Virus record (IMG/VR): IMGVR_UViG_3300032278_000157
Location: 1-20,380 of that record
DNA from: a virus
Length of the DNA stretch: 20,380 bases
Strand: one strand, 5' to 3'
Below are positions 3,063 through 18,375 of this stretch, piece after piece. Numbering within the stretch: the first letter of the stretch is position 1; each line of letters starts with the position of its first letter. A program made the translations under genes and the position numbers. The notes below the pieces were generated by a model. That model was not told the origin of the DNA. It did not search any database and worked only from the letters and a program-made list of their open reading frames with translations.

Positions 3063-3274
3063 AGTGTTCCAAGTGGAGACACGCGAAGCACATCATCAAG
3101 AATGTTAGGACGAGTGAAATGAGATGTCGTATCTGTATCACTCGGATTCTGCTGATATGTCCGATATGCAAAGGAGGCGGTAAGATGAAGCACAAAATCG
3201 ACGGCTTGGAATCCTGTTTGCATTGTGGCGGTCAGAGGGTGGTTCCGCAGATGGGGGTTGAATCATGGGAGTAA
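3032..3274 (+). CDS. Small multi-zinc-ribbon protein
   Basis: An 80-residue basic protein with four Cys pairs: C-x2-C near the N-terminus (CIEC), then CRIC, CPIC and CLHC. This is enough to bind two zinc ions in ribbon or treble-clef style. ATG 3032 is preferred because a GGAAG Shine-Dalgarno-like stretch lies about 9 nt upstream; ATG 3023, three codons earlier, would leave only about 1 nt between that motif and the start. The stop overlaps the next start (3265) by 10 nt. Role unknown; such ribbons often mediate protein or nucleic-acid contacts in archaeal viruses. Confidence 0.6.
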   Translation: MEIKWLGYCIECSKWRHAKHIIKNVRTSEMRCRICITRILLICPICKGGGKMKHKIDGLESCLHCGGQRVVPQMGVESWE

Positions 3275-3927
3275 TCATCTACGCTGGTGACGATGAGGAG
3301 TTCCGAAAGGGCGAGTTCATCGTGATGCACGGTGAGATGACTTCACCACCGACTGCCCCCGAAGTGACCTACATATTGCATTGTGAGTCGTTTCCTCTGT
3401 CTATGGCGCGGGAATGGGGGCCATTGGTGGAGTATCGGCTTGTAGTCATCCCCCGAAAGGGCTGTAGGGGCATTACCGAAGGGGATAACATCTTGATTCA
3501 CAAATCCGCGAAGGTCCCGAAGAAAAACTTCAATACTCCTATCAATGCGATGCTGAAATGGACTGACCGCAATAGGGCATGGAAGGCTATGAAGGTTGTT
3601 CCGCTCGCTCTTGCTGAGGCGTTCCATAGGGTAAATCGGGTTGAGGGCATCGAAGAAATGCGGACCGTCAGCAGGGCGAGATACCAAATGGAAGAGGATT
3701 ACGCGAAATCGGCCCTCGTCTTCGGAACCCCTCCAATTCATAGTAGCGTCACATGGCCTAAGAAGAAGAGTAAGGATGATGAAATCCCCTTTGGATTCCG
3801 GGCGAGCGATGAATACGCCGAGTTAATAATTAAGAACGCTCCCGAAGTGAGAAACGAATTGCGAACAATCGGACATACGCCCTCTACCGTGAAGAAGCGG
3901 AAAGAAACGGTGGTGGAGTGGTTATGA
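3265..3927 (+). CDS. Unknown basic protein with C-terminal VEWL motif
   Basis: A 220-residue protein I do not recognise. The first 90 residues are rich in predicted strands (YILHCESF, EYRLVVIPRKG, EGDNILIHKS), compatible with a small beta fold. Residues about 95-150 are helical and Arg/Lys/Trp-rich, and the tail is charged. It ends in KKRKETVVEWL. The last four residues match the termini of the DNA polymerase, the methyltransferase and the GNAT-like protein in this window, which suggests a shared binding partner, perhaps the PCNA clamp at 8142. The stop codon overlaps ATGATG of the next gene, exactly as at the polymerase end (14681-14692). A replisome accessory role is inference. Confidence 0.6.
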   Translation: MGVIIYAGDDEEFRKGEFIVMHGEMTSPPTAPEVTYILHCESFPLSMAREWGPLVEYRLVVIPRKGCRGITEGDNILIHKSAKVPKKNFNTPINAMLKWTDRNRAWKAMKVVPLALAEAFHRVNRVEGIEEMRTVSRARYQMEEDYAKSALVFGTPPIHSSVTWPKKKSKDDEIPFGFRASDEYAELIIKNAPEVRNELRTIGHTPSTVKKRKETVVEWL

Positions 3928-4115
3928 TGGAACTCACAGGTTGGGAAGCAATCGCTCTACTGTTCTACATGCCTCTCACTTGGCTCCCTCTTTATTGGGC
4001 ATTTATAAGAGTATCTCGGTTTCTCTTGGTGAGAAAATTGTCGGCCAATCTACCGGAAAAGGCGAGCGACTCAGTCAGTCTTGCGGGGGCCTCCATGTGG
4101 ATGGGTCAGGAATAG
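3924..4115 (+). CDS. Small single-pass membrane protein
   Basis: A 63-residue protein starting at ATG 3924 (or 3927) within the preceding stop codon. One strongly hydrophobic, aromatic segment (residues about 6-30, including LLFYMPLTWLPLYWAF) should span the membrane. It is followed by basic RVSRFLLVRK, so the C-terminus is probably cytoplasmic by the positive-inside rule. The C-terminal third overlaps the tRNA-like fold at 4031-4136 and is less convincing as protein. A different frame is open over the same DNA from 3941, but its translation lacks domain character, so this frame is preferred. Confidence 0.5.
   Translation: MMELTGWEAIALLFYMPLTWLPLYWAFIRVSRFLLVRKLSANLPEKASDSVSLAGASMWMGQE
4003..4008 (+). 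promoter_or_regulatory. Possible TATA box
   Basis: TTATAAG occurs inside the membrane-peptide gene. At the 28-nt spacing used elsewhere in the window, transcription would start at about 4031, four bases before the tRNA-like fold. No good protein start lies there; GTG 4029 would give only the membrane peptide's tail. Confidence 0.3.
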
Positions 4116-4136
4116 GGTTAAATCCTACCACAATTT
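4031..4136 (+). ncRNA. Candidate tRNA(Leu)-like structured RNA or remnant
   Basis: Seven bases at 4035-4041 (AAATTGT) pair perfectly with 4130-4136 (ACAATTT). Directly inside lie a D-arm-like GCC...CCGG...GGC (4044-4063) of class II tRNA type, a weak anticodon-like stem whose enlarged loop starts CTCAG (CAG would read Leu), and a T-arm-like TAGG/CCTA hairpin with a 7-base loop. However, U8, the TTC of the T-loop and a 7-base anticodon loop are missing, and the length is 102 nt. It is at best degenerate, intron-bearing or coincidental. From 4137 to 4264 I see nothing else recognisable apart from a possible 6-bp pairing, CGGTAG with CTACCG. Confidence 0.2.
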
Positions 4137-4264
4137 CCGACTGCGTGTCGGCATACGAACCGGGGGTCAACAAGAAGGAAAGGGGATTTGCTGAACCCGG
4201 TAGTCGAGGGCGTAAGTTAGGCTACCGTCGATTCTATATGGGACGAAGGAGTAAGGGAAAGAGA

Positions 4265-4672
4265 ATGGCTGGTTATAACGCTCGAATAAGGCGACATTTG
4301 ATTCAGATACTATGGGATATTGCAGAACCTCTGACCAAGCAGGAGATTACAACGCACCTTAAGAACAGATGCAAACTCGTCAGCACACCCAGCCCCATAT
4401 CCCTCGGCACTATCCTATCCCGAAACCCACAGGTCAATTCCGATAAGTCCATCATCATTACGACCGGTGACGGTAGGAGAAGGCGTGTCCCACAGTATGA
4501 AGTCAATTACGACTTGATTATCGAAGAAGAAGACATACTACTCACTCTTCCATTCAATGCCTTGACCAAGATGGAGAAATCACAGGCTGTCTTGTGCCGT
4601 GGTTGCGGTAGGAGAAGATACTTCACAGAAGATATGGAGCGATGTTTGGAGTGCTTCCGATTTCCAAAATGA
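4265..4672 (+). CDS. Winged-helix plus zinc-ribbon DNA-binding protein
   Basis: A 135-residue basic protein. The frame is open back to 3941, but the upstream translation looks non-coding; ATG 4265 has a purine-rich GGGAAAGAG just upstream, and ATG 4238 is an alternative. Residues about 5-80 form a likely winged helix: helix RRHLIQILWDIAEP, then LTKQEITTHL, then SLGTILSRNP, then the basic wing DGRRRRVPQYEV. The C-terminus carries C-x2-C-x11-C-x2-C (CRGC...CLEC), a zinc ribbon. The combination suggests a transcription-factor-like or viral regulatory protein. It ends just before the TATA box of the next operon. Its target is unknown. Confidence 0.6.
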   Translation: MAGYNARIRRHLIQILWDIAEPLTKQEITTHLKNRCKLVSTPSPISLGTILSRNPQVNSDKSIIITTGDGRRRRVPQYEVNYDLIIEEEDILLTLPFNALTKMEKSQAVLCRGCGRRRYFTEDMERCLECFRFPK

Positions 4673-4678
4673 TTATAA
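4673..4678 (+). promoter_or_regulatory. TATA box for the zinc protein/RFC operon
   Basis: GATTATAAGC directly follows the stop codon at 4672. The first T of TTATAA is exactly 28 nt before ATG 4701, so a leaderless transcript is expected. Confidence 0.65.
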
Positions 4679-4700
4679 GCGGTGAAGCAGACGGCCCTAC

Positions 4701-4928
4701 ATGCACCGGCCCGTAAGATTGAAGAGCGATGAAGAAGAGAAATGCTATTTCTGCACTACACCCCTCCCCGAGAAGGGGAAAGACGGTATCGTTTGGTATC
4801 GAGGTAAGACAGGTATGCGCTGGGAGACTATTCCCGTATGCGAGTTGTGCTGGCGCGTTGCTGAGGAAGTGCGTGGTTGGTATGATAGCCCCCACTCATA
4901 CCCAGAGTCACGCCATAGGAGTGATTGA
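4701..4928 (+). CDS. Small zinc-finger protein
   Basis: A 75-residue protein with C-x2-C pairs CYFC (residues about 15-18) and CELC (about 47-50), separated by a basic, Trp-containing stretch, a typical four-Cys zinc site. ATG 4701 lies 28 nt after the start of a TATA box, which supports this start. The stop TGA overlaps the TTG start of the RFC gene (TTGA), so the two are probably cotranslated. The function is not recognisable. It may be a clamp-loader or replisome accessory by position, but that is only context. Confidence 0.6.
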   Translation: MHRPVRLKSDEEEKCYFCTTPLPEKGKDGIVWYRGKTGMRWETIPVCELCWRVAEEVRGWYDSPHSYPESRHRSD

Positions 4929-5836
4929 AGGTGAAGGAGATATGGGCGGAGAAATACAGGCCGAAGGAACTCGATGAGGTGCTGGCGCAAGAAAGCGTCG
5001 TATCTGAGATGGTAAGCATAGTGCGCGGTGACGCTCCGATGCAACATTATCTCTTCCACTCACCCGAACCCGGTAGCGGTAAGACGACAGTTGGGCGCGT
5101 CATGGCTAACGAGTTGGGCTATCAATTGCACGAGTTCAACGCATCCACTAAGAAGCAGAGGGGAATTGACTTCGTTGAAGACGATATTGGTCCTATGTCC
5201 CGTATCGGTCAATGGGAGACTATTTTCCTTCTTGACGAGGCAGACAGGATTACACCGACGGCACAGGACGCGCTGAAAGGAGTCATTGAAAATGCACAGG
5301 GCTACTTCATTCTCACCTGCAACGACTTGAATAAGGTTTCGCCGTGGCTCAAATCGAGATGCCAAGTTAGGACCTTCACCCCCATACCCGACGATGAAGT
5401 CTATGACCGTTTAGCCCATATCTGTGTTCAAGAAGCGATAGACCATATCGGTGAAGCCGACCTTAATGTGATAGTGGAAAAGCACAAGGGCGACATGAGG
5501 AATGCCATCGGTGCGCTTCAAGCCGCCTCGTATCTATCCCCTGCCGATAAGGAGGCATTCATAGCATCCCTGACCGTCCCACCAATAGATGCGGGGAAGG
5601 TCCTAAGCCTATGCTTCAAGGAGAAGGATGTTCCGGCGGCTGTTGCCCTACTATCTACAACGCGGGCGCGTGACTCTATCCATGCCGTCTTCACTAAGGC
5701 GGTAGATGCTAACATCAGCGACGCGAACATGAAACTGTTGGTTGTCGGCGCGGCCATCCAAGCAAGACGAGATTTAATCAACGGAGTCCCCGATGACTAC
5801 GTGATTTGGGACTTCTGTCGGGTGATTTCTCAATGA
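4925..5836 (+). CDS. rfcS: Replication factor C small subunit (clamp loader ATPase)
   Basis: A 303-residue AAA+ ATPase that would load the PCNA ring onto primed DNA. From the TTG start, the N-terminus reads IWAEKYRPKELDEVL, the hallmark of RFC small subunits. Walker A is PEPGSGKTT (about 47-55), Walker B LLDEAD (102-107), sensor 1 TCND (131-134) and the trans-acting SRC motif SRC (144-146). The C-terminal collar helices are shorter and less conserved; the protein is slightly shorter than the usual 315-330 residues. TTG 4925 overlaps the previous stop; GTG 4931, 9 nt after GGAG, is an equally good start. No RFC large subunit is visible here, so this protein may act as a homo-oligomer or with host RFC-L. 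Confidence 0.92.
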   Translation: MKVKEIWAEKYRPKELDEVLAQESVVSEMVSIVRGDAPMQHYLFHSPEPGSGKTTVGRVMANELGYQLHEFNASTKKQRGIDFVEDDIGPMSRIGQWETIFLLDEADRITPTAQDALKGVIENAQGYFILTCNDLNKVSPWLKSRCQVRTFTPIPDDEVYDRLAHICVQEAIDHIGEADLNVIVEKHKGDMRNAIGALQAASYLSPADKEAFIASLTVPPIDAGKVLSLCFKEKDVPAAVALLSTTRARDSIHAVFTKAVDANISDANMKLLVVGAAIQARRDLINGVPDDYVIWDFCRVISQ

Positions 5837-5846
5837 ACCGGCAGGG

Positions 5847-5852
5847 TTATAA
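5847..5852 (+). promoter_or_regulatory. TATA box with leader for the ssDNA-binding/Sak4 operon
   Basis: GGTTATAAGG lies in the 59-nt gap after rfcS. The usual spacing would put transcription start near 5875, giving a leader of about 20 nt that contains AGGTG 7 nt before ATG 5896. This unit is thus leadered, unlike most others here. Confidence 0.55.
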
Positions 5853-5895
5853 GGGGTGACTTAGTGGCGTTAAGTAGCAGAACAGGTGTGATTAT

Positions 5896-7143
5896 ATGAC
5901 CGAAATTGATGTGGAACAGATAGTGAGTGACCTCGCAACCAACTTAGGTGTTGGCGAGGATAGATTAAGAACGAAAATGGGTGAAGTGCTTGCGGAGAAT
6001 GGCCCAGCGTGGGCCAACGCAGGTAAGGATGAGGTGACCTGCCAAATCCTATCAGCCCGAGTTGCCGGTCGTCAATTGAAGATGATTGGCGAGCGCCTCA
6101 AGAAATCGGGCCTTGAACAATTCGAGGGAATGTTCATCCGTGTCCCCCCTTACAAGGATTGGGCTCAGATAGCATACCGCAAGAACGAGCGTGAATTGAC
6201 GGCACGAGGAAGTGTTGGTGACCCCTCTACACAGGCGCAAATCAGAAATGGTGCGCTTGTCTACTTCGAGGCTAACGGCGCAGGCTATACCCGACACGCT
6301 AATTCGAGTCTTCTGAACCGAAACGCGCTGGTTGAGGGCATTGACGAGGCTACGGTTTCAGAATTGCCTAAGATTATCCATGAACTCCCTAACGGTGATG
6401 CGTTCTACCTTGTGTGGAACAACACGACACCGACCTTCCCATCGGGTGACGCTAACTTCAAGTATGGAGCCCCGCGCCCTGCTTCGGAGAAGGAGCGAAC
6501 ATCACACTTCTTAGGACGCAAGGCTGGTAGCAACGACGAGCCAGCACTAATCACGGTGAGGTCATCCGGCAAGACAGCCGATGTGCAATACGCTACCTTC
6601 CTCCCCGGAACAATAGGGCTTCGACCCGGACGGGACGGGAAGGTCGCCTATGCTAAGGAGTTGAGTGACCTTCTTCCGAATGAAGAGGTTGCAGGTATTT
6701 TCGATGCACCCCCCTTCGCCGTCGGAGACGATGGCCCCGAAGGGATAGTGACTGAGATGTTGGGCGGGCTTTACCCCGACGGAGGTCTTCTGCCTTCTTT
6801 CGCCACATTGGAGCAGTATCATACTGACCATAATGGAGACAAGGATTGGTGGGACCAATGGATAGGAGTTGTTGGTGAAGTGGTGCATATCGACCCGCGC
6901 GAGCGTGGTGGATTCACCGTGACGCTGGGAGACTTAGACATTACTTCAACAGCACCCGGTCAGGATTTGGTGATTCCGCGTTCGCAGGAGCACCTCCTTA
7001 ACTTCGGGCTGGGTTCGCAGGTTCTCATAGTGGGACAAACATACAAGAGCCGTGATGACGAGATGCGTTTCGTGAGTCATGGTTGGTGGTGTGTTGATGC
7101 TGTGGCCTCAGTTGCTATCGACGAAGAATCATGGGAGGACTGA
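5896..7143 (+). CDS. OB-fold ssDNA-binding protein, RPA-like candidate
   Basis: A 415-residue protein. The N-terminal 50 residues form a helical segment like those that precede OB folds in archaeal RPA. Residues about 75-100 (FEGMFIRVPPYKDW) and about 315-390 (WIGVVGEVVHIDP, FTVTLGDLDI, GSQVLIVGQTY, ending near GWWCVDAV) read as beta-barrel strands, and the last block is the clearest OB-fold candidate. The tail is acidic (IDEESWED), as in many SSBs that recruit partners. The gene has a TATA box with a short leader and an AGGTG Shine-Dalgarno, and is followed 4 nt later by a Sak4-like recombinase. That pairing matches the known dependence of Sak4 annealases on SSB. The RPA call is inference from fold pattern and context. 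Confidence 0.5.
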   Translation: MTEIDVEQIVSDLATNLGVGEDRLRTKMGEVLAENGPAWANAGKDEVTCQILSARVAGRQLKMIGERLKKSGLEQFEGMFIRVPPYKDWAQIAYRKNERELTARGSVGDPSTQAQIRNGALVYFEANGAGYTRHANSSLLNRNALVEGIDEATVSELPKIIHELPNGDAFYLVWNNTTPTFPSGDANFKYGAPRPASEKERTSHFLGRKAGSNDEPALITVRSSGKTADVQYATFLPGTIGLRPGRDGKVAYAKELSDLLPNEEVAGIFDAPPFAVGDDGPEGIVTEMLGGLYPDGGLLPSFATLEQYHTDHNGDKDWWDQWIGVVGEVVHIDPRERGGFTVTLGDLDITSTAPGQDLVIPRSQEHLLNFGLGSQVLIVGQTYKSRDDEMRFVSHGWWCVDAVASVAIDEESWED

Positions 7144-7147
7144 TAGT

Positions 7148-8104
7148 ATGGCGCAGGCAGGTTGGGCTAAGGGCTCACCAAAGGCGAAGACCCCATCTAA
7201 GCCATCGTATAATGTTGACCATTACCGTCAGCAATTCAACAAGAATGTTGAGCGCAGACTTGAAGCAACCCCGGTCCGAATGGCCCTTGTTGGGAAGGAG
7301 AACACCTGCAAGACAGGACTTGCGCTCAGTCTTTGCCGCACACCCGAAGAGGTTAAGGAGGGTAAGAAGGTCATCCTATTCGACTTCGATTCATCAGCAG
7401 AAGCAACGGTGAGGTTCGTCTGTCCCGACGACCCTAATGTAATCGTGCTAAAACTCTTCGACGAAACTGACGATTCTATCTTCGAGGAAGACGGCGTAAC
7501 CACCTCATGGACCGGTTTGGTTAAGAAGGTAAGAGCCTTCGTGACTATCGCCGGTCAGATAGTGTCTGAGGAGGATGTTGCGGCTATCATATTCGATGGA
7601 GGTTCAACCTATCTCAAGTGGTGCGAGTTCGCTATGCGTGAATCACTAATAGAGAAGGGTATAATTGCTGACGAAGGGGACTCATTCAATCAGAAGGAGT
7701 GGCGCGAGAGGAATCAGACATTCCGCGACACCCTATACCGAATCCAAGCCCTGCCGGTAGGACGAGTGTTCTTCACATTCCACTTGAAGGACCACAAGAC
7801 ATACCTCAGCGATGGGGGAGGCAAGAAAGTTCTCATGAAGGTTGGTGAAAAGCCCGACTGGGTCGATGGAACCCAGCGCAATATGAGCCAGCAGATATTC
7901 TTGGCTCGATATACCAAAGAGGGAGATGAAGCCGCAGGCGTTAGGGCAGACTCAAAACTCACCGCTAAGGAGTTCGTGGTTCGCGGAACCGTTGAGGAAA
8001 TGAAGGGGACGGGAAGTGAGTTCGTGGGGACCGTCCATGATGTTCTACAGATAAAGGGTGGGAAGGTCACATGGAATGGCCTACCTGATATGGGCCTCAT
8101 CTGA
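7148..8104 (+). CDS. RecA/RadA-superfamily ATPase, Sak4-like
   Basis: A 318-residue ATPase. ATG 7148 is chosen because GGGAGG lies 9 nt upstream; the longer frame from 7079 overlaps the previous gene. The P-loop region is VGKENTCKTG (residues about 48-57), where the glycine before Lys-Thr is replaced by Cys. FDFDSS follows near 78-83, Walker B AAIIFDGG near 145-152, and a sensor-like VFFTFHLKDHK near 197-207. A RecA core without the DNA-binding N-domain of RadA, plus the FxFH-type strand, fits the phage Sak4 group of single-strand annealing/recombination ATPases. The ssDNA-binding candidate lies immediately upstream. It probably acts in viral recombination or fork repair. The Cys substitution may lower ATP turnover. 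Confidence 0.65.
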   Translation: MAQAGWAKGSPKAKTPSKPSYNVDHYRQQFNKNVERRLEATPVRMALVGKENTCKTGLALSLCRTPEEVKEGKKVILFDFDSSAEATVRFVCPDDPNVIVLKLFDETDDSIFEEDGVTTSWTGLVKKVRAFVTIAGQIVSEEDVAAIIFDGGSTYLKWCEFAMRESLIEKGIIADEGDSFNQKEWRERNQTFRDTLYRIQALPVGRVFFTFHLKDHKTYLSDGGGKKVLMKVGEKPDWVDGTQRNMSQQIFLARYTKEGDEAAGVRADSKLTAKEFVVRGTVEEMKGTGSEFVGTVHDVLQIKGGKVTWNGLPDMGLI

Positions 8105-8113
8105 ACGGAATGC

Positions 8114-8119
8114 TTATAA
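8114..8119 (+). promoter_or_regulatory. TATA box for the PCNA operon
   Basis: GCTTATAAGCCCTAACGG. The first T of TTATAA is exactly 28 nt before ATG 8142, so a leaderless mRNA is expected. The 14 bases from TTATAA through CCCTAACG are repeated at 11624. Confidence 0.7.
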
Positions 8120-8141
8120 GCCCTAACGGGGTGGCCGTAGT

Positions 8142-8963
8142 ATGCAGGTTAAGACAGCAGACCTTAAGAGACTTCTTGAAGTCACTTCGAGAAAACAATT
8201 TGTGAATGCGAAGCCACAGCAACAGGTCATCGGTTGTGTGATTCGACCCAACGGGGCATCGGCTAAGACGACCAGCCTCGTCCGTGACGGTAAGACGAGT
8301 CTTGCACAGTTCTCTATGGGTTGTGATTGGGAGGAAGGAGAAGATGCTATCGTTGTCCCCGACATCGAACGCCTGCTGGGAGTGCTTACAGCGCACGGTG
8401 GCGAAGCGACATTAATACAGGACGGCGGTTCCCTCAGAATCAAGAGCAAGGGGAAGCAGACAACCCTTGTTGCAGAACCCGGTAGCCTTGCGTTTCCTCA
8501 CACACAGGAGACAATCGCCCAATGGGAGGAAAAGTCCATGTCCTTAGCGGAGCAGATTGATTCAACAACCCCCTCCTATAAGATGCGTGATGGCTCCGAG
8601 CGCACAGCGTTCTGCTGTATTGATACCGGGTCATCCCTGCTTCACGAGGCTTTGAAGGCAGACAACATCAACGCACAGAAACTCAATCAGTATCAATTCA
8701 TCCACGACGGTTCAAATACCCTGAGCGTCAGAACAGGGACAGACCTCAAGGGTGAGACACACACCATCCTTAACGAGGAATGTCCGTATGATGAAGCATT
8801 CGAGTCTGTCTATGAAGGCGGGTTGGAGCAAGTCCTTGCACACTATGACGGGATGGTCACCTTATGCTTCTTAGATTTCAGACCGGAGGGACAAGGCATC
8901 CGACTGATTGCCCGATTCGATAACGACGATTGGGTATTTCAAGCGGCTGTCTTGAAGAGGTGA
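8142..8963 (+). CDS. pcn: PCNA-like sliding clamp
   Basis: A 273-residue protein, slightly longer than the roughly 245-250 of archaeal PCNA. It begins MQVKTADLKRLLE like a clamp N-terminal helix. The repeated pattern of a helix followed by strands is visible: VPDIERLLGVLTAHGG then ATLIQDGGSLRIKS in the first domain, and LEQVLAHYDGMVTLCFL then IRLIARFDNDDWVFQAAV at the C-terminus. That ending resembles the closing strands of PCNA. The clamp would tether PolB and other C-terminal-peptide proteins. ATG 8142 has its own TATA box 28 nt upstream. The clamp loader lies one operon away. Divergence is high, so the interdomain loop and binding pocket cannot be assigned by eye. Confidence 0.75.
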   Translation: MQVKTADLKRLLEVTSRKQFVNAKPQQQVIGCVIRPNGASAKTTSLVRDGKTSLAQFSMGCDWEEGEDAIVVPDIERLLGVLTAHGGEATLIQDGGSLRIKSKGKQTTLVAEPGSLAFPHTQETIAQWEEKSMSLAEQIDSTTPSYKMRDGSERTAFCCIDTGSSLLHEALKADNINAQKLNQYQFIHDGSNTLSVRTGTDLKGETHTILNEECPYDEAFESVYEGGLEQVLAHYDGMVTLCFLDFRPEGQGIRLIARFDNDDWVFQAAVLKR

Positions 8964-8967
8964 TTAG

Positions 8968-9456
8968 ATGGAGGATTGGAATTACTATGTGGGCGACCCC
9001 TGTTATGTGGTAGACGACAACAAGTGGGATGAGTTCTGCAACCTACTGTTCAAGAACGAGGGTTATCAAGGAGACAACCCTGCCTATATCGAATGGGAGG
9101 TTGATGGTGAGTTATATGAAATCGAAACATGGGACAGCCCCGGAGGCGATGGTGTGTGGAGGTTTAGTGGTGGTGAATGTGGGGTTGATGCCGGTCTTTT
9201 GGCGATAGTCCCCCGCGAATGCTGTGCTCAATCAGCAGAAGGTATGGGAATCCTGTTCGAGTGCCGCCCCGAACTCGAAACAAGTAATCAAGACTATATG
9301 GTCATACTGAACGGTGAGCGCGATGCAAGTTGGACTGAGTGTGGCGAGTGTGGTGAGTGGGTCTATATTGATGGGGGCGAATGGGAATGTAGCGAGTGTT
9401 GGAAGACGGGTTGCGAGTCCTGTTGGACCGGATGCGAGTGTGATGAGGATGAGTAA
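8968..9456 (+). CDS. Acidic phage-type protein with Cys-rich C-terminus
   Basis: A 162-residue, very acidic protein 4 nt after the clamp gene, with GAGGTGA before ATG 8968. The first half (WNYYVGDPCYVVDDNKWDEF, then strand-rich segments and FSGGECGVDAGLLAIVP) resembles a family of small phage proteins of unknown function that begin with a YVGDPCYV-type sequence. The last 45 residues hold about ten Cys, starting with C-x2-C (CGEC) and CSEC and continuing CESC and CEC, likely two zinc sites. The fusion of the two parts is unusual. Low pI could mean nucleic-acid mimicry, but no function can be stated. Confidence 0.6.
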   Translation: MEDWNYYVGDPCYVVDDNKWDEFCNLLFKNEGYQGDNPAYIEWEVDGELYEIETWDSPGGDGVWRFSGGECGVDAGLLAIVPRECCAQSAEGMGILFECRPELETSNQDYMVILNGERDASWTECGECGEWVYIDGGEWECSECWKTGCESCWTGCECDEDE

Positions 9457-10645
9457 TGTTGAACGACATATCATCCGAACCCCACTAAAGGAGCGATACG
9501 GCGCACCCCCTTTCAGCATCCTTGATGCTCGGCAGGGCTACTGGCAAGACCGCAAAAGATGGTGGACCAAGAAGGGCATCCGGTCAGAGTTGGGGCGTGG
9601 CGAGCAACTAATCGCCATGTCTAAGTCCAACATGACCTATATGTTCGGCAAGAAGCAGTATGATATTGACCAATTGCAGAAGGAGGGCATCCTTCTAACT
9701 GATGAAGAGGTTGAGGTTGGTGGCGATTCAAAAGGGAGTGCAAAGACATTCGCTATCGGAGACAAGCAGACATGGAATGCTGAGCAAGAGGCGAAGAAGG
9801 ACTTACGCGCTATCCCCGGTGGAGGCACAGGGAAGAACAGCGCATGGCTCCACAAGAACGAGGATGGAACAACAAGTGCGACCCTCCAAGACCCGGATGC
9901 TTTTCAGAACAGGGCGTCGGGGACTTCGATATTCGACCCGGTGCTAACCGAGTTGATGTATGGTTGGTTTTGTCCCGAAGGCGGTAGCATTCTTGACCCG
10001 TTCTGCGGCGGTTCAGTTAGAGGTATAGTGGCGGCACACGGCAACCACGAGTATGCCGGTATGGAGTTGCGTTCCGACCAAGTCCAAGCCAATAGGATTC
10101 AAGGGCTCGAGATATTGGGGGACACGGATTACCCTATGCCTAATTGGGTCGTTGGTGATGCACTCGATATACAGGACAAGATAGGAGGCGACAGAATGTG
10201 GGACTTCATCTTCTCTTGCCCCCCGTATGGTGACCTTGAAGTCTATTCAGAAGACGATAGGGACCTATCAACGATGGAACACCACGAGTTCCTCGATACA
10301 TACCGCACAATCATTCAGCGTTCTGTGGAGTTGCTCAAGCCTAACAGGTTCGCCTGCTTCGTCGTGGGTGACTTCCGAAATGAGGAGGGCTTCTACCGAA
10401 ACTTCGTTAGCGACACCATTGACGCATTTCAGTCAGCAGGAGCCATACTATACAATGAGTGCATCCTAATCACCGTTGCAGGTAGCCTGCCTATCAGAGT
10501 GCATAAGCAATTCGCCAACAACCGCAAACTCGGTAAGACACATCAGAATGTTCTCATCTTCTTCAAGGGTGACCCGAAGACTATCAAGGATGAGTTTCAG
10601 TATCTTGATGTTGAAGACAAGACAGAGGCTGTGGAATGGCTCTAA
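9443..10645 (+). CDS. Phage-type DNA (N6-adenine or N4-cytosine) methyltransferase
   Basis: About 400 residues from ATG 9443 (ATG 9449 also possible); the frame is open back to 9314 but that part lies within the upstream gene. The N-terminus PPFSILDARQGYWQDRKRWW, then SELGRG, is characteristic of a phage DNA-modification methylase family. The SAM-binding motif I is ILDPFCGGSVRG (residues about 182-193) and the catalytic motif IV is SCPPYGDLE (about 257-265), the amino-methyltransferase PPY signature with Cys before PPY. Motif I precedes motif IV. The protein ends in AVEWL, matching the polymerase terminus. Its final codons contain the ATG of the next gene. Likely role: methylating viral DNA against host restriction, possibly at the fork. 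Target sequence unknown. Confidence 0.8.
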   Translation: MRMSNVERHIIRTPLKERYGAPPFSILDARQGYWQDRKRWWTKKGIRSELGRGEQLIAMSKSNMTYMFGKKQYDIDQLQKEGILLTDEEVEVGGDSKGSAKTFAIGDKQTWNAEQEAKKDLRAIPGGGTGKNSAWLHKNEDGTTSATLQDPDAFQNRASGTSIFDPVLTELMYGWFCPEGGSILDPFCGGSVRGIVAAHGNHEYAGMELRSDQVQANRIQGLEILGDTDYPMPNWVVGDALDIQDKIGGDRMWDFIFSCPPYGDLEVYSEDDRDLSTMEHHEFLDTYRTIIQRSVELLKPNRFACFVVGDFRNEEGFYRNFVSDTIDAFQSAGAILYNECILITVAGSLPIRVHKQFANNRKLGKTHQNVLIFFKGDPKTIKDEFQYLDVEDKTEAVEWL

Positions 10646-11604
10646 GCCTATCGGACTTTGAACCGCTCACCTTAGACAATCTATTGGATTACCGCAACGG
10701 TCTGTTCCGTGCCTACCGGCATCCCCGATACTATCAGTCCCCGCTCCGTCTGATGCACCAACCCCATGTCTTCAAGGTCGGCTATGTGAATGATGATGTG
10801 GTGGTCATCAAGGACAGGCAGATAATGGGAACGCAGGTTCTCTATTCTATACTACCCCCGAACAATTGGGAGGTCATAGACACCTTGACCGAAGCAGGCA
10901 TACCCTGTTTTCTAAGCGACGAAGATGTGCATTCCGCCCCCAAGCGATACGGGGTCGTTCCGGTGAAGGACAACATAGAGTATGTGTATCATCTATCAGC
11001 GTTCTCAGATAGGTTCGGGGTGAATAAGAATCAACTGCGCCGCCCCTGTAATCGTGCTGAGTCGTTGTGTGAGTCGGGCGCGTTGAATATCTGTGCATAT
11101 TGGGGCGAAGTCCCCTACGATACGCTGGAATCGTGCAAGGCTTTGACCGTCAAGTGGTTGGGTCAGAGGGCGAAGTCAGCGTGGAAGCCAAATTACTTCC
11201 TCGATGTATTCAATCAGTATGCGGCCACCTCACCTGACCAAGCCCTGTTATTGACCATCATGCAGGGGGATAGGTGCTTAGGCTACCACCTATCACATAG
11301 GGTCTGTAATGGTATCATCTATGATGTCGCCTGCAAGGACTATGAGGACACACCGATTAAGAACATGACCCCTGTGATGCTACACCATGCGTCTAAGGCG
11401 TGGGCTGAGCGCTTCCCTTCGCAGGTTGAATACCTTCGAGTGAATAGGGGTGCGGCGGTCCGAGGTAAGGCCAGCAGAATAGCCAAAGAAAAACTCAGAC
11501 CGTATCTGCGTAATCAAATCTACAAGACAGTCCCCGATGTGAAAATGACCCGTGACTTAAAGGATTCCCTCTTCGCGACCGGAAAAGGCGTGGAATGGGT
11601 ATAG
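10636..11604 (+). CDS. GNAT/DUF2156-like acyltransferase-fold protein
   Basis: A 322-residue protein starting inside the last codons of the methyltransferase (10-nt overlap). It carries features of GNAT or aminoacyl-transferase-like folds: an N-terminal strand region, the block VYHLSAFSDRFGVNKNQLRR, the central helix-rich segment, and ALLLTIMQGDRCLGYHLSHRVCNGIIYDVACKDYED, which looks like the beta4-beta5 acyl-CoA region. A C-terminal basic helix (RIAKEKLRPYLRNQIYK) follows. It ends in GVEWV. Being coupled to a DNA methyltransferase, it could modify a DNA base as the phage Mom protein, also of GNAT fold, does; this is inference. A protein acyltransferase role is equally possible. Confidence 0.45.
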   Translation: MALSLSDFEPLTLDNLLDYRNGLFRAYRHPRYYQSPLRLMHQPHVFKVGYVNDDVVVIKDRQIMGTQVLYSILPPNNWEVIDTLTEAGIPCFLSDEDVHSAPKRYGVVPVKDNIEYVYHLSAFSDRFGVNKNQLRRPCNRAESLCESGALNICAYWGEVPYDTLESCKALTVKWLGQRAKSAWKPNYFLDVFNQYAATSPDQALLLTIMQGDRCLGYHLSHRVCNGIIYDVACKDYEDTPIKNMTPVMLHHASKAWAERFPSQVEYLRVNRGAAVRGKASRIAKEKLRPYLRNQIYKTVPDVKMTRDLKDSLFATGKGVEWV

Positions 11605-11623
11605 GGTCATGAAACCGGAAGCC

Positions 11624-11629
11624 TTATAA
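11624..11629 (+). promoter_or_regulatory. TATA box for the HTH/deoxyribosyltransferase operon
   Basis: CCTTATAAGCCCTAACGG shares its core and the downstream CCCTAACG with the PCNA promoter at 8114. Transcription start is expected near 11652, leaving a 30-nt leader before TTG 11682 that contains a five-codon reading frame at 11668-11685. Confidence 0.6.
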
Positions 11630-11681
11630 GCCCTAACGGATTGGTAGTAAGTAGAAAGCGTAAAGGCATGAGGCCACAACA

Positions 11682-11969
11682 TTGAGTATAACTGCAAAAA
11701 TCGAGACAAAGACAGACGGGACCATCAGCGTGAATGCTGGCGAAAGAGTGATTGTAGGCGACCATTGGTATAGATTAGAGTGTGGTGTGGTAGCATCGCG
11801 AGTCAAGGCTTACCGAGATAGGGAATGGCTCCTCGACATGTATCACGGGAACGGTCAGACTCTTAAGCAGATAGGAGAAACCTGTGGGGTGAGCCCCATG
11901 ACGATTAACCAATGGTTGGTCAGGCACGGAATCCCAAGCAGGCCTCGAGGAAGGCGGAAGATTGAATGA
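11682..11969 (+). CDS. Helix-turn-helix DNA-binding protein
   Basis: A 95-residue protein from TTG 11682; a stop at 11661 and no other in-frame start upstream make TTG the only early candidate. The first 45 residues are a strand-rich small domain. Residues about 48-92 contain a classic phage/resolvase-type helix-turn-helix: LLDMYHGNGQTLKQIGE, then CGVSPMTINQWLVRHGI, followed by the basic tail RPRGRR. It should bind DNA as a regulator or as an adaptor of a larger enzyme. The TTG overlaps the stop of a five-codon leader frame (TTGA), and the gene's own stop overlaps the next start (ATGA). Confidence 0.65.
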   Translation: MSITAKIETKTDGTISVNAGERVIVGDHWYRLECGVVASRVKAYRDREWLLDMYHGNGQTLKQIGETCGVSPMTINQWLVRHGIPSRPRGRRKIE

Positions 11970-12466
11970 CCGTCACCTTCTATCTGTGCGGTCCAATCCT
12001 TCACGATGAAGATAGGGACCGCTCGTTAGCGTGGCGTGAAATAGCGTTTGATATTCTGAGCTCAAATGGGTTCGAGGTTTTCAACCCGATGGTCAGCGAG
12101 CAGTATGGGAATGTGCATTATGATGAGCAATTCAAGGAACTCATAGTCCCACGCGACAAGATGATGATTGAGCGTTCTGATGTAATCATTGTGAATTACA
12201 TTCCGAAAGAACTCAGTATAGGGACCTGCATGGAGGTCATGTATGCTCACATGATAGGCAAGAAGGTCATTTGGTTCGCAGAAGATGAGGAATTGGGAAT
12301 TAAACTCGAAGAGAACCCGTGGGTGATAGCACACAACGATTGGGAGTTCGTTAGACCTTTCAATGCAGATTCGATACGGGACCTGTGTGAATGGTTCGGG
12401 TGTTTCGGTCTGCATGAACCGATTGCTCTTATAGATGCTTACAAAAGACCCCGTGACTTCTGCTAA
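11966..12466 (+). CDS. Nucleoside 2-deoxyribosyltransferase-like enzyme
   Basis: A 166-residue protein of the nucleoside 2-deoxyribosyltransferase/DNPH1 fold. The N-terminal strand and loop YLCGPI (6-11), WREIAFDILSSNGFEVFNP (23-41), the strand SDVIIVNY (71-78) and the loop SIGTCMEVMYAH (84-95) match the family. Glu90 of GTxxE is in the position of the catalytic nucleophile and Asp72 in that of the second acidic residue. Such enzymes exchange or hydrolyse bases on deoxynucleosides, so this one could supply a modified nucleotide or salvage dNTPs. Residues from about 100 include a Trp-rich extension. It is coupled by ATGA to the HTH gene. Substrate unknown. Confidence 0.75.
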   Translation: MTVTFYLCGPILHDEDRDRSLAWREIAFDILSSNGFEVFNPMVSEQYGNVHYDEQFKELIVPRDKMMIERSDVIIVNYIPKELSIGTCMEVMYAHMIGKKVIWFAEDEELGIKLEENPWVIAHNDWEFVRPFNADSIRDLCEWFGCFGLHEPIALIDAYKRPRDFC

Positions 12467-12469
12467 GGC

Positions 12470-12475
12470 TTATAA
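12470..12475 (+). promoter_or_regulatory. TATA box for DNA polymerase
   Basis: GGCTTATAAGG lies just after the preceding stop codon at 12466. The first T of TTATAA is exactly 28 nt before GTG 12498, the same spacing as for 4701, 8142, 15366 and 17839. This argues that GTG 12498, not ATG 12435, is the polymerase start. Confidence 0.65.
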
Positions 12476-12497
12476 GGCGCACCCCCTACATAGGGCT

Positions 12498-14690
12498 GTG
12501 ATAGTGGATAGGTTAGGTGGGAGAAGGGTTGCGGTTAGGTATCGTGACCCCGTCACCCTTGACCGGAAGCAAGATGTTATAGGAGACATATACCCCTACG
12601 GGTTTCTTCGGGATGAGGAAGCAGAATTGGTGCAGGCGGTCGGGAAAGAAAGCGGCTATACCGGAGTGTATGGTGAGCCGCTGACCAAAGTGGCCCTTGC
12701 AGACCCGAGCGAAGTGGGGGCATTGACGAAGAAGTTTTCTCAGACATGGGAATGCAATATCCCCTTCACCAATCGAGTGTTAGTGGATTCCGGTAGACAC
12801 TATCCGTTCTACAAGCATCGTGTGTGGTATCTCGACCTTGAATGGAATGAACAAGAAGAAGTGACGGTAGCGACAGTCTTCGACAATTACATGGGAAAGT
12901 ATCTAACATGGTTCGTCGCCCCACCCGGCTCTAACTTCCCGCCTATGGTCAGTCAGATAGGGGATAAGGTGTTCGACACACCGCTTAAGTGCTTCCAAAG
13001 TGAGAAGGAATTGCTTGACGACTTCTTCCATGTGATGATGAAGAAGGACCCGGATGTGCTGACCGGCTGGTGGCTCATGGGTGCGGATATGCGAGTCCTG
13101 TTTGATGCCTGCAAGAGACACGGTTGGAATGCTGGGAAAAGAATGAGCCCTCACGGTGCTGTCCGGTATCAATTTGACGACTATTCACAATGTATCATGG
13201 GCCGTCTGACTATCGACCTGATGGTGGTCTTCTGCCGTTTGTGGCGTGTTCAGAATGGTCAATTGCCCGGTCAGAGTCTTGCTGATGTTTCAGCCTATGT
13301 CTTACCCGACGACACCAAGCACGAGTTAGAAGACGGACACGATACCTACTACACAGACATTGGTAGGTATATCGACTATAACATACAGGATGTGGCCTTG
13401 ATGCCTAAACTCGATAAGATGCTGAATTGCATCGACCACTTTCTGAACCTACAACACATCGTCCAATGCGACTTCACAACTACTCCGTGGGTGACGAGAC
13501 TATGCACAGTCCTTCTGATGCGGGATGAGGACTTCAACCTTCGCATCCCATCCAGACCACAATTCCCATTAGAGAAATATGAAGGGGCAGACATACAGGA
13601 GCCTAAGCCCGGTCTTTATGAGTCTGTCGCCATCATGGATGTGCGAGCGATGTATCATTCCAATGTGGTCAAGAACAACATATCGTGGGAGACTATCGTT
13701 GGGGATTCTTTCGATTTGGATGCCCCAACAGGGGCGTTAGGTCGAGCGATGGACCTACTTACCAATCTACGCAACGAATACAAGAGTAATATGAAGGCTT
13801 CGGTGACCAAAGAGGAAAGGGTTAAATGGAACTCGGCGCAGTATGCTACAAAGTCGTTAGTGGCTTCACTATACGGTGTGTGTGGAGACAGCCGGTATGG
13901 TATGTATCACCCAGCGGTAGCGGCGGCAATCACTCGCACATCAAGGGAGACGCTTGGTGAATTACGAGATAGGTGTGTTGAACAGGGACACGAGGTGATT
14001 TACGGCCACACGGACTCAGTATTCGTGACTGTTGAATCCCCCGAACAAGGGGTCACTATGGTTGATTGGATTAACGAGCAGATGCACCCCATCGAAACTG
14101 AGTTTGAGAAATACTGTGAAAGGATGATGCTCAAGGCCAAGAACCGATACGCTGGTAAAGTGGTCTGGACTGACGGTGAGTATCACGAACCCGAATACTA
14201 CATCAAGGGGATAGAGTCCAAGCAGGCACGGATGCCTAAGACCATGAAGGACGCTATGAACACCACGATAAACTCGATGCTTGATGGAAGGTCACAAGTA
14301 TGGGTGACCGAAAAGGTGTCTGAAATCATTCACGACATCGTTGAAGGACGGACTTCACTTGAGGACTTGAAGATGAAGGGCAAATTGAAAAAGGACCTTG
14401 AAGACTATAAGACGATAGGTGGTCCTGCGGCGGCGGCACTATGGGCGAACACCAACCTCGGTAAGGAATATCGCAAAGACTCCTACTTTTGGGTGCTGAT
14501 TGACGACACCGGAAGGTTTATAGGCTTTGATGAAATAGCAGAGTTGCCGGAAGGTGTTCGGATAGGGTATGAGGTCATGGTTGAACGCTACATCATTGAA
14601 AAGGTCAAACCATTTTATGAGATAGCAGGCTGGGATATTGGACCTTTAGTGGATGCAAAGCGAGGCAGAAAAGCAATAGAGTGGTTATGA
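12498..14690 (+). CDS. polB: Family B DNA polymerase
   Basis: A 730-residue replicative polymerase with proofreading, counted from the leaderless GTG 12498 (ATG 12435 would add 21 residues that overlap the promoter). Exo I is YLDLEW (Asp113, Glu115). Exo II TGWWLMGADM keeps Asp197 but lacks the usual Asn. Exo III is YNIQD (Tyr294, Asp298). Motif A is IMDVRAMYHS (Asp381). Motif B is TKSLVASLYG (Lys452), with Ala instead of Asn before Ser. Motif C is YGHTDS, with His504 for the first Asp and the catalytic Asp506 kept. LKAKNRYAG corresponds to the KKRY motif. There is no intein. It ends RKAIEWL, a candidate clamp-binding tail. The stop overlaps ATGATG of the next gene. It should copy the viral genome with the clamp and loader encoded nearby. 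Confidence 0.93.
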   Translation: MIVDRLGGRRVAVRYRDPVTLDRKQDVIGDIYPYGFLRDEEAELVQAVGKESGYTGVYGEPLTKVALADPSEVGALTKKFSQTWECNIPFTNRVLVDSGRHYPFYKHRVWYLDLEWNEQEEVTVATVFDNYMGKYLTWFVAPPGSNFPPMVSQIGDKVFDTPLKCFQSEKELLDDFFHVMMKKDPDVLTGWWLMGADMRVLFDACKRHGWNAGKRMSPHGAVRYQFDDYSQCIMGRLTIDLMVVFCRLWRVQNGQLPGQSLADVSAYVLPDDTKHELEDGHDTYYTDIGRYIDYNIQDVALMPKLDKMLNCIDHFLNLQHIVQCDFTTTPWVTRLCTVLLMRDEDFNLRIPSRPQFPLEKYEGADIQEPKPGLYESVAIMDVRAMYHSNVVKNNISWETIVGDSFDLDAPTGALGRAMDLLTNLRNEYKSNMKASVTKEERVKWNSAQYATKSLVASLYGVCGDSRYGMYHPAVAAAITRTSRETLGELRDRCVEQGHEVIYGHTDSVFVTVESPEQGVTMVDWINEQMHPIETEFEKYCERMMLKAKNRYAGKVVWTDGEYHEPEYYIKGIESKQARMPKTMKDAMNTTINSMLDGRSQVWVTEKVSEIIHDIVEGRTSLEDLKMKGKLKKDLEDYKTIGGPAAAALWANTNLGKEYRKDSYFWVLIDDTGRFIGFDEIAELPEGVRIGYEVMVERYIIEKVKPFYEIAGWDIGPLVDAKRGRKAIEWL

Positions 14691-15104: not shown

Positions 15105-15359
15105 ATGAGTAAACTCGACTGGGAGACTTTCAAGGACTATGCGTGGAACGGGGGAGATGTTCAGTCGTGCTATTCGGAGATTCACAATGGAGAAGACCGG
15201 GAAGTGTTCTGTGTGGATATTAGCCACAGCGGTCTAAGCACCCTGACCGAAGCAGAAGTGTTGTTGGGCCTCCATGTTACCGGTCTATTCCTATTCACTT
15301 TCGCGTATGCGCTCTACATTTGGCGAAGTAGCAAGGCTTATAAGCCCCAACGCAGATGA
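15105..15359 (+). CDS. Small C-terminally anchored membrane protein
   Basis: An 84-residue protein. The first 48 residues are polar and acidic with two Cys; residues about 50-73 (VLLGLHVTGLFLFTFAYALYIW) form one membrane span, followed by the basic tail RSSKAYKPQRR, so the C-terminus should face the cytoplasm. GAAGG lies directly before ATG 15105; no TATA box is seen at the usual distance. Codons for the tail residues KAYKP contain the TATA box of the nuclease/primase operon. Function unknown. Confidence 0.55.
   Translation: MSKLDWETFKDYAWNGGDVQSCYSEIHNGEDREVFCVDISHSGLSTLTEAEVLLGLHVTGLFLFTFAYALYIWRSSKAYKPQRR
15338..15343 (+). promoter_or_regulatory. TATA box for the Cas4-like nuclease/primase operon
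   Basis: AGGCTTATAAGCCCCAACG sits inside the end of the preceding gene. The first T of TTATAA is exactly 28 nt before ATG 15366, predicting a leaderless mRNA. Confidence 0.7.
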
Positions 15360-16461: not shown

Positions 16462-16649
16462 GTTCAGATGAAAATAAGTCCTTTCTCGCTATATGTGAAA
16501 CCTGCGGCAAAGAGACTTGGTGGAACGCTTCGGTCGTTTTCAATGTGGGTATGGTTGAAGGGAGGAAATTAGGTGTTAGCACCATCAAGAAATGCCTCGA
16601 ATGCGGAATGGTGGAGCGATATGACGGAGATTCTCACATTTCCCCGTGA
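16458..16649 (+). CDS. Small zinc-ribbon protein
   Basis: A 63-residue protein from GTG 16458, which overlaps the preceding stop. Two C-x2-C pairs, CETC (residues about 13-16) and CLEC (about 46-49), with GKETWW after the first, give a standard four-Cys zinc ribbon. It overlaps the primase start by 29 nt. The frame is kept because of the Cys pairs and the operon chain; role unknown. Confidence 0.55.
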   Translation: MSSDENKSFLAICETCGKETWWNASVVFNVGMVEGRKLGVSTIKKCLECGMVERYDGDSHISP

Positions 16650-17646
16650 GATAGGGCTTAAGAGGATGCCCTGCACTAACAGGGTTGATTTCAAGGAGTA
16701 TATTCGCAAACTCAACGGCAAGGCTGACCTCTATACCAGCCTGTATGGATTCACCGACCTTCAAGACAAGGATAACACCGCCATAATGGATAGAGCATGG
16801 TGGGACTTCGATTCCAATGACCGTTGCACCATAGAGCAGGTGAAGGATGATGTGTCCGTCATGCTTGGTCGATTGGAGGGTGATGTGCGCTTGGTCGCCA
16901 CAGGCCGAGGGTTTCATGTTCATCAGTTATTCAATGTGCCGGTAGATTCGCGCAGATGGAGGCATACTATCGACCGCTATCAGCGCAAGATGGCCGAAGG
17001 ACTCACATCGCTCGATGGGGTCGGTTATCCCCGAAAACTGTGTCGAATACCACACACCTACAACGCTACAAGGGGCCGCTTCGCCGTCATGGTGGCCGCA
17101 GATGCTTTCATGACGACTCCACGCACGACTCCTATCGCGAGTCGTCCGAATGAATCACCTGCCGCATACCTTCACCCCTATTGGGGAGCCCCTCGCGATT
17201 CTATGTTCGAGGAATACGGTTTCGACATTAGAGAGTGGGCGGCGAATAATCCTGTGGAGTTGATGGGCGACTGGAATGTTCAACAGGTGACGGTCATAGA
17301 GGGGACACACGAGGCTATCCCTATGATACCATGCCTGCAACGAGAAATTGAATTGTCTAATCCCCCACACCACATACGCGTCGCGTTGGCGCAACATCTA
17401 TTCGAGCATTTGCGAAACTTCTCCGAACCATCAGCCCTGACCGCAGAACAGAAAGACCACATGATAGATTTGGCGGTGGCTTTCATAACGAAACTTGAGT
17501 GGGGGGACTACAATGAAGCGGTCACAAGGAAAGCCTTAAGAACGCTCGTATCTTACGGAAGGTCCCCGTCGTGTGCGTGGTTCTGTAAGCGTGGCCTCTG
17601 CGCTGGCCCATGTTGGCGAGATGATGGCACGAGGCGTGAGTTTTAG
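16621..17646 (+). CDS. Single-chain archaeo-eukaryotic primase: PriS-like core fused to PriL-type Fe-S domain
   Basis: About 341 residues from ATG 16621; the frame is open back to 16573 but ATG 16621 follows a GGTGGAG stretch and fits family N-termini. The catalytic core shows WWDFDSND (metal-binding Asp62 and Asp64), TGRGFHVHQLF (His99 of the sxH-type motif) and KLCRIPHT (Arg142). The C-terminal 120 residues look like the PriL iron-sulfur domain: IPC (Cys228), an all-helical stretch, then SPSCAWFCKRGLCAGPC with Cys308, 312, 317 and 321. The 80-residue gap between the first two Cys matches PriL. A fusion of PriS with PriL-CTD in one chain is known from archaeal plasmid primases such as PolpTN2. 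It should make primers for PolB. Confidence 0.8.
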   Translation: MTEILTFPREIGLKRMPCTNRVDFKEYIRKLNGKADLYTSLYGFTDLQDKDNTAIMDRAWWDFDSNDRCTIEQVKDDVSVMLGRLEGDVRLVATGRGFHVHQLFNVPVDSRRWRHTIDRYQRKMAEGLTSLDGVGYPRKLCRIPHTYNATRGRFAVMVAADAFMTTPRTTPIASRPNESPAAYLHPYWGAPRDSMFEEYGFDIREWAANNPVELMGDWNVQQVTVIEGTHEAIPMIPCLQREIELSNPPHHIRVALAQHLFEHLRNFSEPSALTAEQKDHMIDLAVAFITKLEWGDYNEAVTRKALRTLVSYGRSPSCAWFCKRGLCAGPCWRDDGTRREF

Positions 17647-17838: not shown

Positions 17839-18375
17839 ATGGGCGACATACCCGAAGGTTTGCTCATCGTCGATGATAGGGAAAACGATAAGGTCATCCA
17901 TAAACTCATCATGTCGTTGGGTGATTCCAAGACGGACCCCGATGGTAAGGTGCTCGTGATGCGGCTTAAGACAGGAGACTACATCATCGGGGATTGGATT
18001 ATCGAAGCGAAGGAGATTAAGGACTTATCAGCGTCCATCATAGGGCAGGGGCGGTCGAGAACTATCGCGGCACAGTTGAGGGACCAGCAGATATACGGAA
18101 TCCAGCATTTCAAGACCCCATACCTTGTGGTGTATGGTGAGACTAAGGACTTGAAGCCGTTCTTCCATAAGGGCTCTAAGGGTGGGAAGCAGAACGCGGT
18201 CATACAGAAGGCCCGAATGAAGGCAAGGATAGCGGGATTCAAAAAGACCTTTCTCTTTAGATTTCCCGCTACGAGATATTTCGAGGTAGAAACACTTGAT
18301 GACTTCGTGGCTTGGCTCATTGAAGCATACACCCAAAAGGTCGTTCTTAATCAACCAAGCGAGTCTTCGATATAA
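17839..18375 (+). CDS. ERCC4 (XPF/Mus81/Hef-type) nuclease domain protein
   Basis: A 178-residue single-domain nuclease. LLIVDDREND (residues about 8-17) provides the first acidic residues. KTGDYIIGDWIIEAKEIKDL (44-63) is the family's GDxxxERKxxxD region, here with E-A-K-E-x-x-D: the ERK core reads EAK, keeping Glu56, Lys58 and Asp62. GRSRTIAAQLRDQ matches the following R-x-x-x-Q-L helix. There is no helix-hairpin-helix pair or helicase domain, so it is smaller than cellular XPF or Hef and resembles virus- and phage-encoded ERCC4 proteins. It should cut branched DNA such as flaps, stalled forks or packaging junctions. Its last 25 nt overlap the end of the convergent structural gene. Confidence 0.8.
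   Translation: MGDIPEGLLIVDDRENDKVIHKLIMSLGDSKTDPDGKVLVMRLKTGDYIIGDWIIEAKEIKDLSASIIGQGRSRTIAAQLRDQQIYGIQHFKTPYLVVYGETKDLKPFFHKGSKGGKQNAVIQKARMKARIAGFKKTFLFRFPATRYFEVETLDDFVAWLIEAYTQKVVLNQPSESSI

Follow-up and report, generated by a model that had tools for sequence, protein, structure and literature searches.

Why would four proteins of one virus, assigned to different families, end in nearly the same four residues? The question is raised by a 20,380-base virus record (G000; the window, meaning the whole stretch of DNA that was analysed), in which four genes on the plus strand encode the C-terminal pattern [VI]-E-W-[LV]. Direct translation confirmed the four ends as first described in a sequence-only reading of this DNA: ...KETVVEWL in a 220-aa protein that is probably a gp62/RFC-large-like clamp-loader subunit (3265..3927, stop at 3927; VEWL at 3913-3924); ...KTEAVEWL in an N6/N4-type DNA methyltransferase (MTase; 9449..10645; VEWL at 10631-10642; PF01555, E 1e-10; phrog_498); ...GKGVEWV in a GNAT-superfamily-like (LPG_synthase_C-like) protein (10636..11604; VEWV at 11590-11601); and ...RKAIEWL in a family B DNA polymerase, PolB (12498..14690; IEWL at 14676-14687; PF00136, E 2e-34). 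The ending is real and conserved, and it is very probably functional. We read the terminal h-x-W-[LIV] (h, hydrophobic) as a short C-terminal tail of the PCNA-interacting peptide (PIP) type that would tether PolB, a clamp-loader subunit and modification enzymes to the viral sliding clamp. We put the probability of this reading at about 0.84.

One alternative is coincidence, with only four ends, a small number, within one window; another is common ancestry of the four C-terminal segments. The chance test used as background the motif rates inside the same window proteins, which were 28/6062 for W[LIV], 2/6062 for EW[LV] and 0/6062 for [VI]EW[LV]. A Trp followed by an aliphatic residue closed 4 of the 27 genes of the window and none of the other 23. 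Four such ends in 27 have a probability of ~7e-6 given the internal W[LIV] rate and of ~2e-10 given that of EW[LV], which bears out the earlier claim that the shared ending is improbable by chance. Common ancestry is opposed by the different Pfam/PHROG families of the tailed proteins, and both alternatives by orthologues in dozens of viruses that kept the ending; either is extremely improbable.

Loss of the ending in orthologues had been named beforehand as a reason to abandon the clamp tail, and the orthologues kept it, at identities as low as ~45%. The terminal W-[LIV] was present in 68 of 69 non-redundant IMG/VR relatives of PolB, the lone exception ending VGFI, and in 51/55 members of the 220-aa family. 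In the latter, Trp stood at position −2 in 52/55, the remaining 3 having it one residue further inward, and an alignment of 42 sequences contained seven invariant columns, the terminal W219 among them. The tail was carried by 14/14 family members of the MTase, compared with 0/73 homologues from other phages outside the family, and by 10/10 GNAT-like sequences found. In a 75-kb relative (G001), 4 of 114 open reading frames (ORFs) ended W[LVIMFW], and these were exactly the same four families. The expectation that the tailed set always includes PolB held in essentially every relative. Client sequences fitted [VILMT][ED]W[LIV] in 67/150 cases and the looser [VILMTA]xW[LIV] in 127/150. Among non-clients, a W[LIV]-type end was found in 0/68 clamp-loader small subunits (RFC-S), 0/69 proteins resembling single-stranded DNA-binding protein (SSB), 0/74 Sak4, 0/76 clamp, 0/50 primase-like, 1/54 nuclease and 1/46 XPF-like proteins.

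The conservation could also reflect translational coupling, in which the next start or ribosome-binding site (GGAGTGGTTATGATG, or GAATGG containing ATG) dictates the tail codons. In the window, a downstream start overlaps or adjoins the ends of the MTase, PolB and 220-aa genes, and the E-W codons GAATGG of the MTase (window 10631-10645) enclose the ATG of the GNAT-like gene (10636). A count of ATG at gene ends was unusable, since GAATGG always has ATG, and a gene-gap test was used instead. Where the next gene cannot start before the stop, so that no overlap is possible, Trp was kept in 34/34 PolB, 15/18 220-aa, 3/3 MTase and 3/3 GNAT genes. The GNAT gene of the window is followed by a TATA-like promoter with no overlapping start, and in L009-L011 PolB retains a DWL or EWL end although the DNA after it is non-coding. 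Because Trp is kept in genes without possible overlap, the constraint acts on the protein. Overlap with a start or a Shine-Dalgarno sequence is ruled out as a general cause by the gene-gap test (34/34 PolB), in agreement with the earlier remark that overlapping starts would not require Trp, and coupling is a highly improbable explanation of the tail.

The PIP box has the consensus Qxx-Psi-xx-theta-theta (PMC6881253). The tail resembles it as a short linear motif in which a Trp anchor (PIP position 7) is followed by a hydrophobic residue; PolB and the large subunits of clamp loaders carry such a motif C-terminally, and some orthologues and sister lineages have the PIP box in full. Thirteen C-termini in related loci, MTases and 220-aa proteins among them, matched Q..[VILM]..W[LIVFW]; full PIP boxes were present in MTase orthologues (VQQRTLAEWL, VDQKTLAEWL) and in 220-aa orthologues (KTQETLTQWL, KTQERVGEWF, KRQEKVSQWL). 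Magrovirus PolB ended QxxL[ED][ED]W[FW], for example GKIQKTLEEWF, with a W[FW] end in 26/26; magrovirus RFC-L ended QQKTLGDYL and similar (QxxLGDYL), the SSB [FLY]DWF and the Cas4-like nuclease DSWV. One magrovirus genome thus has both the short h-x-W-h form and the full PIP form on its replication proteins. Halovirus PolB ended QSGLGAFI (HSTV-2), QTGLGAFV (HRTV-25), QTGLAAFC (VOLN27B) and QRGLADYV (HRTV-27), and Hafunaviridae PolB QxxLGAFI or similar. The tail appears PIP-like by position, client set and intermediates, and seems to be a PIP box in shortened, derived form, not an unrelated tag specific to the virus. Of the earlier proposal of a virus-specific clamp tail, the clamp-client part is backed by the PIP-bearing orthologues and sisters, and the unrelated tag gives way to a shortened PIP box.

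The proposed receptor is encoded at 8142..8963 on the plus strand. Its AlphaFold2 model (predicted local distance difference test score, pLDDT, 86.8; predicted template modelling score, pTM, 0.86) showed the two-domain PCNA fold and matched A. fulgidus PCNA with Z 19.0 over 221 residues and T4 gp45 with Z ~17.7. The protein had no match in Pfam or PHROG and no significant match to the PDB by sequence profile, so the identification is based on the predicted fold. The model gives good support to a diverged clamp of the PCNA type, in line with the earlier claim that the window encodes one.

The clamp loader had been thought to lack the tail. The small subunit (RFC-S/gp44-like; 4925..5836, plus strand; phrog_168, E 1e-42) is indeed without it, and the claim probably fails for the loader as a whole, with the tail present on the putative 220-aa subunit, which was found at 23 IMG/VR loci. 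The AlphaFold2 model of this protein (pLDDT 83.7; pTM 0.55) matched mostly clamp-loader subunits (most of the 50 matches listed, every Z <8), with CTF18-RFC at Z 7.2 and yeast RFC1 also among the matches listed, and its helical part, residues 88-165, matched T4 gp62 (8uk9_A) over 70 residues at 2.4 A with Z 6.4. Like T4 gp62 and the archaeal RFC large subunit, it has a helical domain that may correspond to gp62 and the RFC collar, a gene near RFC-S, and a C-terminal PIP-like tail as in magrovirus and halovirus RFC-L. It differs from them at the sequence level, hhalign finding no similarity to magrovirus RFC-L (Prob 2.6), and the structural Z is just 6 to 7. The structural matches may be a chance chain of weak matches, Z <8 being no proof. 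Because of the uniform match list, the proximity to RFC-S and the tail common with magrovirus and halovirus RFC-L, we consider the modelled protein a probable gp62/RFC-L-like clamp-loader subunit.

Family genes without an assignment that end W[LIVMFW] formed a small number of clusters. The tail was present on two types of N6/N4-MTase, whose sets overlap (26/26 and 10/10), on C5-MTases (5/7), on DpdA (3/3), on an ABC-ATPase-plus-GNAT protein (phrog_11143, 4/4), and on a single phrog_757 MTase that ends QWGVLEWL. In a control scan, representatives of 74 untailed clusters included 0 MTases, one Mom-like and one TAGT-like protein. The tail follows, or probably follows, DNA-modifying enzymes of varied folds and chemistries, the two GNAT-type proteins presumably having a role in DNA modification. 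PF09924 was found in 4/5 members of the GNAT-like family (best E 1.9e-7), with the protein of the window under the curated cut-off, and no Mom homology of the GNAT-like protein was detected. The virus family appears to tail most types of modification enzyme that it carries, and homologues of the window MTase outside the family have no tail. The earlier picture of a replisome-client tag stands for PolB and the probable clamp-loader subunit; it does not extend to replisome enzymes generally, the carriers being chiefly DNA-modification enzymes.

Several observations weigh against a PIP-type clamp tail. The window tails are not canonical PIP boxes by Gln, position 4 or final aromatic residue: position −8 is K, K, T and G in place of Gln; a hydrophobic residue at PIP position 4 (−5) is found only in the 220-aa protein (V; A in PolB and the MTase, G in the GNAT-like protein); and position 7 is Trp in all four, followed by an aliphatic residue (L or V) at position 8. 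Unlike the PIP box, the tail has mostly lost the Gln across the family, carries its hydrophobic residue largely at position 5 (mostly at −4) and not 4, has Leu, Ile or Val rather than an aromatic residue last, and ends exactly at the C-terminus. The overall count of W[LIV] ends, 178/186 client genes compared with 16/1524 background genes, is partly ascertained, the extra client families having been found via the tail; the PolB, MTase, GNAT and 220-aa families were fixed beforehand by the window. Mom-like (L144:14927-15595) and TAGT-like (L114:8345-9343) proteins of related viruses are without the tail, which rules out a tail universal on modification enzymes. T4 alpha-glucosyltransferase binds gp45 (PMC13216743), and this clamp binding did not set modification levels (2026 study, PMC13216743); because of this, the benefit of the tail may lie in placement or timing and not in amount.

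In the mechanism that we propose, the virus would use its own PCNA-fold clamp, with the tails docking in the clamp inter-domain pocket. For processivity, PolB would dock via the very end of its C-terminus, like the PolBs of T4/RB69 and of archaea, and the gp62/RFC-large-like subunit would dock by its tail during clamp loading. N6/N4-MTases, C5-MTases, DpdA and probably GNAT-type modifiers would each have gained the tail, ride the clamp and mark nascent DNA, and the purpose of this replication-coupled marking would be protection from host nucleases. New DNA of this family of marine archaeal-type viruses would most likely be chemically marked during copying. A short motif at the extreme C-terminus suits many peptide-binding receptors, and the tail might be read by a partner other than the putative clamp pocket. 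Such a partner could be a protease or chaperone from either host or virus, a factor for packaging, or another replisome hub such as SSB or helicase. All carriers, however, are clamp-type clients or DNA modifiers, and structural proteins are without the tail; orthologues and sisters show a gradation from the tail to full PIP boxes; and it is improbable that PolB would bear a degron in every virus. We regard such a partner as unlikely.

Clamp docking by C-terminal peptides is known. T4 gp33 and gp55 bind gp45 through a C-terminal LDFL (PMC9690074), and VEWL, VEWL, IEWL and VEWV show the same C-terminal hydrophobic-acidic-aromatic-Leu pattern on unrelated proteins of one virus. The window tail has Trp where T4 has Phe, and the T4 clients are late-transcription factors, whereas those described here are a polymerase, a probable loader subunit and DNA-modifying enzymes. 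Clamp-bound modifiers are known as well, namely T4 alpha-glucosyltransferase and DNMT1, which is bound to PCNA (PMC9690074). Both place a DNA-modification enzyme on a sliding clamp, as is proposed here; they are single enzymes, unlike the at least four modification classes with one tail in one virus family. As far as the literature shows, the reuse of one tail on several DNA-modification chemistries and its use as a predictor are new, no report of such a tail pattern having been found in open-access full text. With rather less confidence than for the tether itself, we favour the view that the clamp is a general DNA-modification platform, in which unrelated chemistries (N6/N4- and C5-methylation, 7-deazaguanine insertion and probably acyl transfer) would repeatedly acquire an interchangeable peptide, marking would be built into the replisome, and the tail would predict DNA-acting genes such as DUF6610 of HVTV-1. 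Replication-coupled genome marking becomes testable with short peptides, the 220-aa orphan is offered an identity as a likely clamp-loader part, and for viruses known from metagenomes only, a tail the same as that of their own PolB flags unknown DNA-acting genes.

A comparable set was found in Druskaviridae, where HVTV-1 (L033) and HCTV-5 (L323) carried their own VLDF-type C-terminal tag, [VP]L[DESG][FWY], on seven proteins: PolB, RFC-L, an N6-MTase, a GNAT protein, DUF6610, an HNH protein (gp92/gp89) and one unknown protein (gp99/gp95). Because they carry the shared tag, the HNH protein and gp99/gp95 are candidate clamp clients. The tag was absent from QueC, QueD, QueE, QueF and GTP cyclohydrolase, and DUF6610 (HVTV-1 L033 33203-34363; HCTV-5 L323 25903-27018) was the only protein of the 7-deazaguanine operon with the viral VLEF tail. 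In HVTV-1 DNA, dPreQ1 stands at ~30% of Gs, and no DpdA of the virus is recognised (PMC6884629); for this reason, and as the sole tailed protein of the operon, DUF6610 may be the DNA-acting (dPreQ1-inserting) enzyme that is missing. Since the ends of Druskaviridae and of the window family differ, a tag is common within lineages and not between them, which would be expected were each set matched to its own clamp.

Judged by PolB, the closest viruses with a name were haloarchaeal tailed viruses, at ~23% identity, and the window belongs to a lineage of archaeal-type tailed viruses. L012 and L013, with PolB at 28% identity to that of the window, look like magroviruses because of a split PolB, a chaperonin-like gene, PCNA and RFC (compare PMC10768690). 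A host search by alignment of PolB against genome contigs found no relatives.

Pfam/PHROG matches in the window comprised PolB, the clamp-loader small subunit, a Sak4-like ATPase, the DNA methyltransferase and a PD-(D/E)XK nuclease. The products of 5896-7143, 16573-17646 and 17839-18375 are putatively SSB-like, primase-like and XPF/ERCC4-like, respectively. A conserved ESWED closes the SSB-like protein, whose magrovirus counterpart ends [FLY]DWF; the ESWED end, acidic and with a Trp, may serve as a docking tip of its own. ATG 9449 is the most likely start of the MTase, and the start of the GNAT-like gene, nested in the MTase E-W codons, couples both genes. PolB probably starts at GTG 12498, within an ORF open from 12435, because most relatives align from residue 21-22; at 12435-12500, the longer ORF start overlaps the preceding gene and a TATA-like CTTATAAGG. 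The sequence TTATAAG recurs in gaps preceding genes (4673-4679, 5847-5853, 8114-8120, 11624-11630, 12470-12476 and 15338-15344), frequently inside CTTATAAGC, and has the appearance of a viral promoter of the archaeal TATA-box kind.

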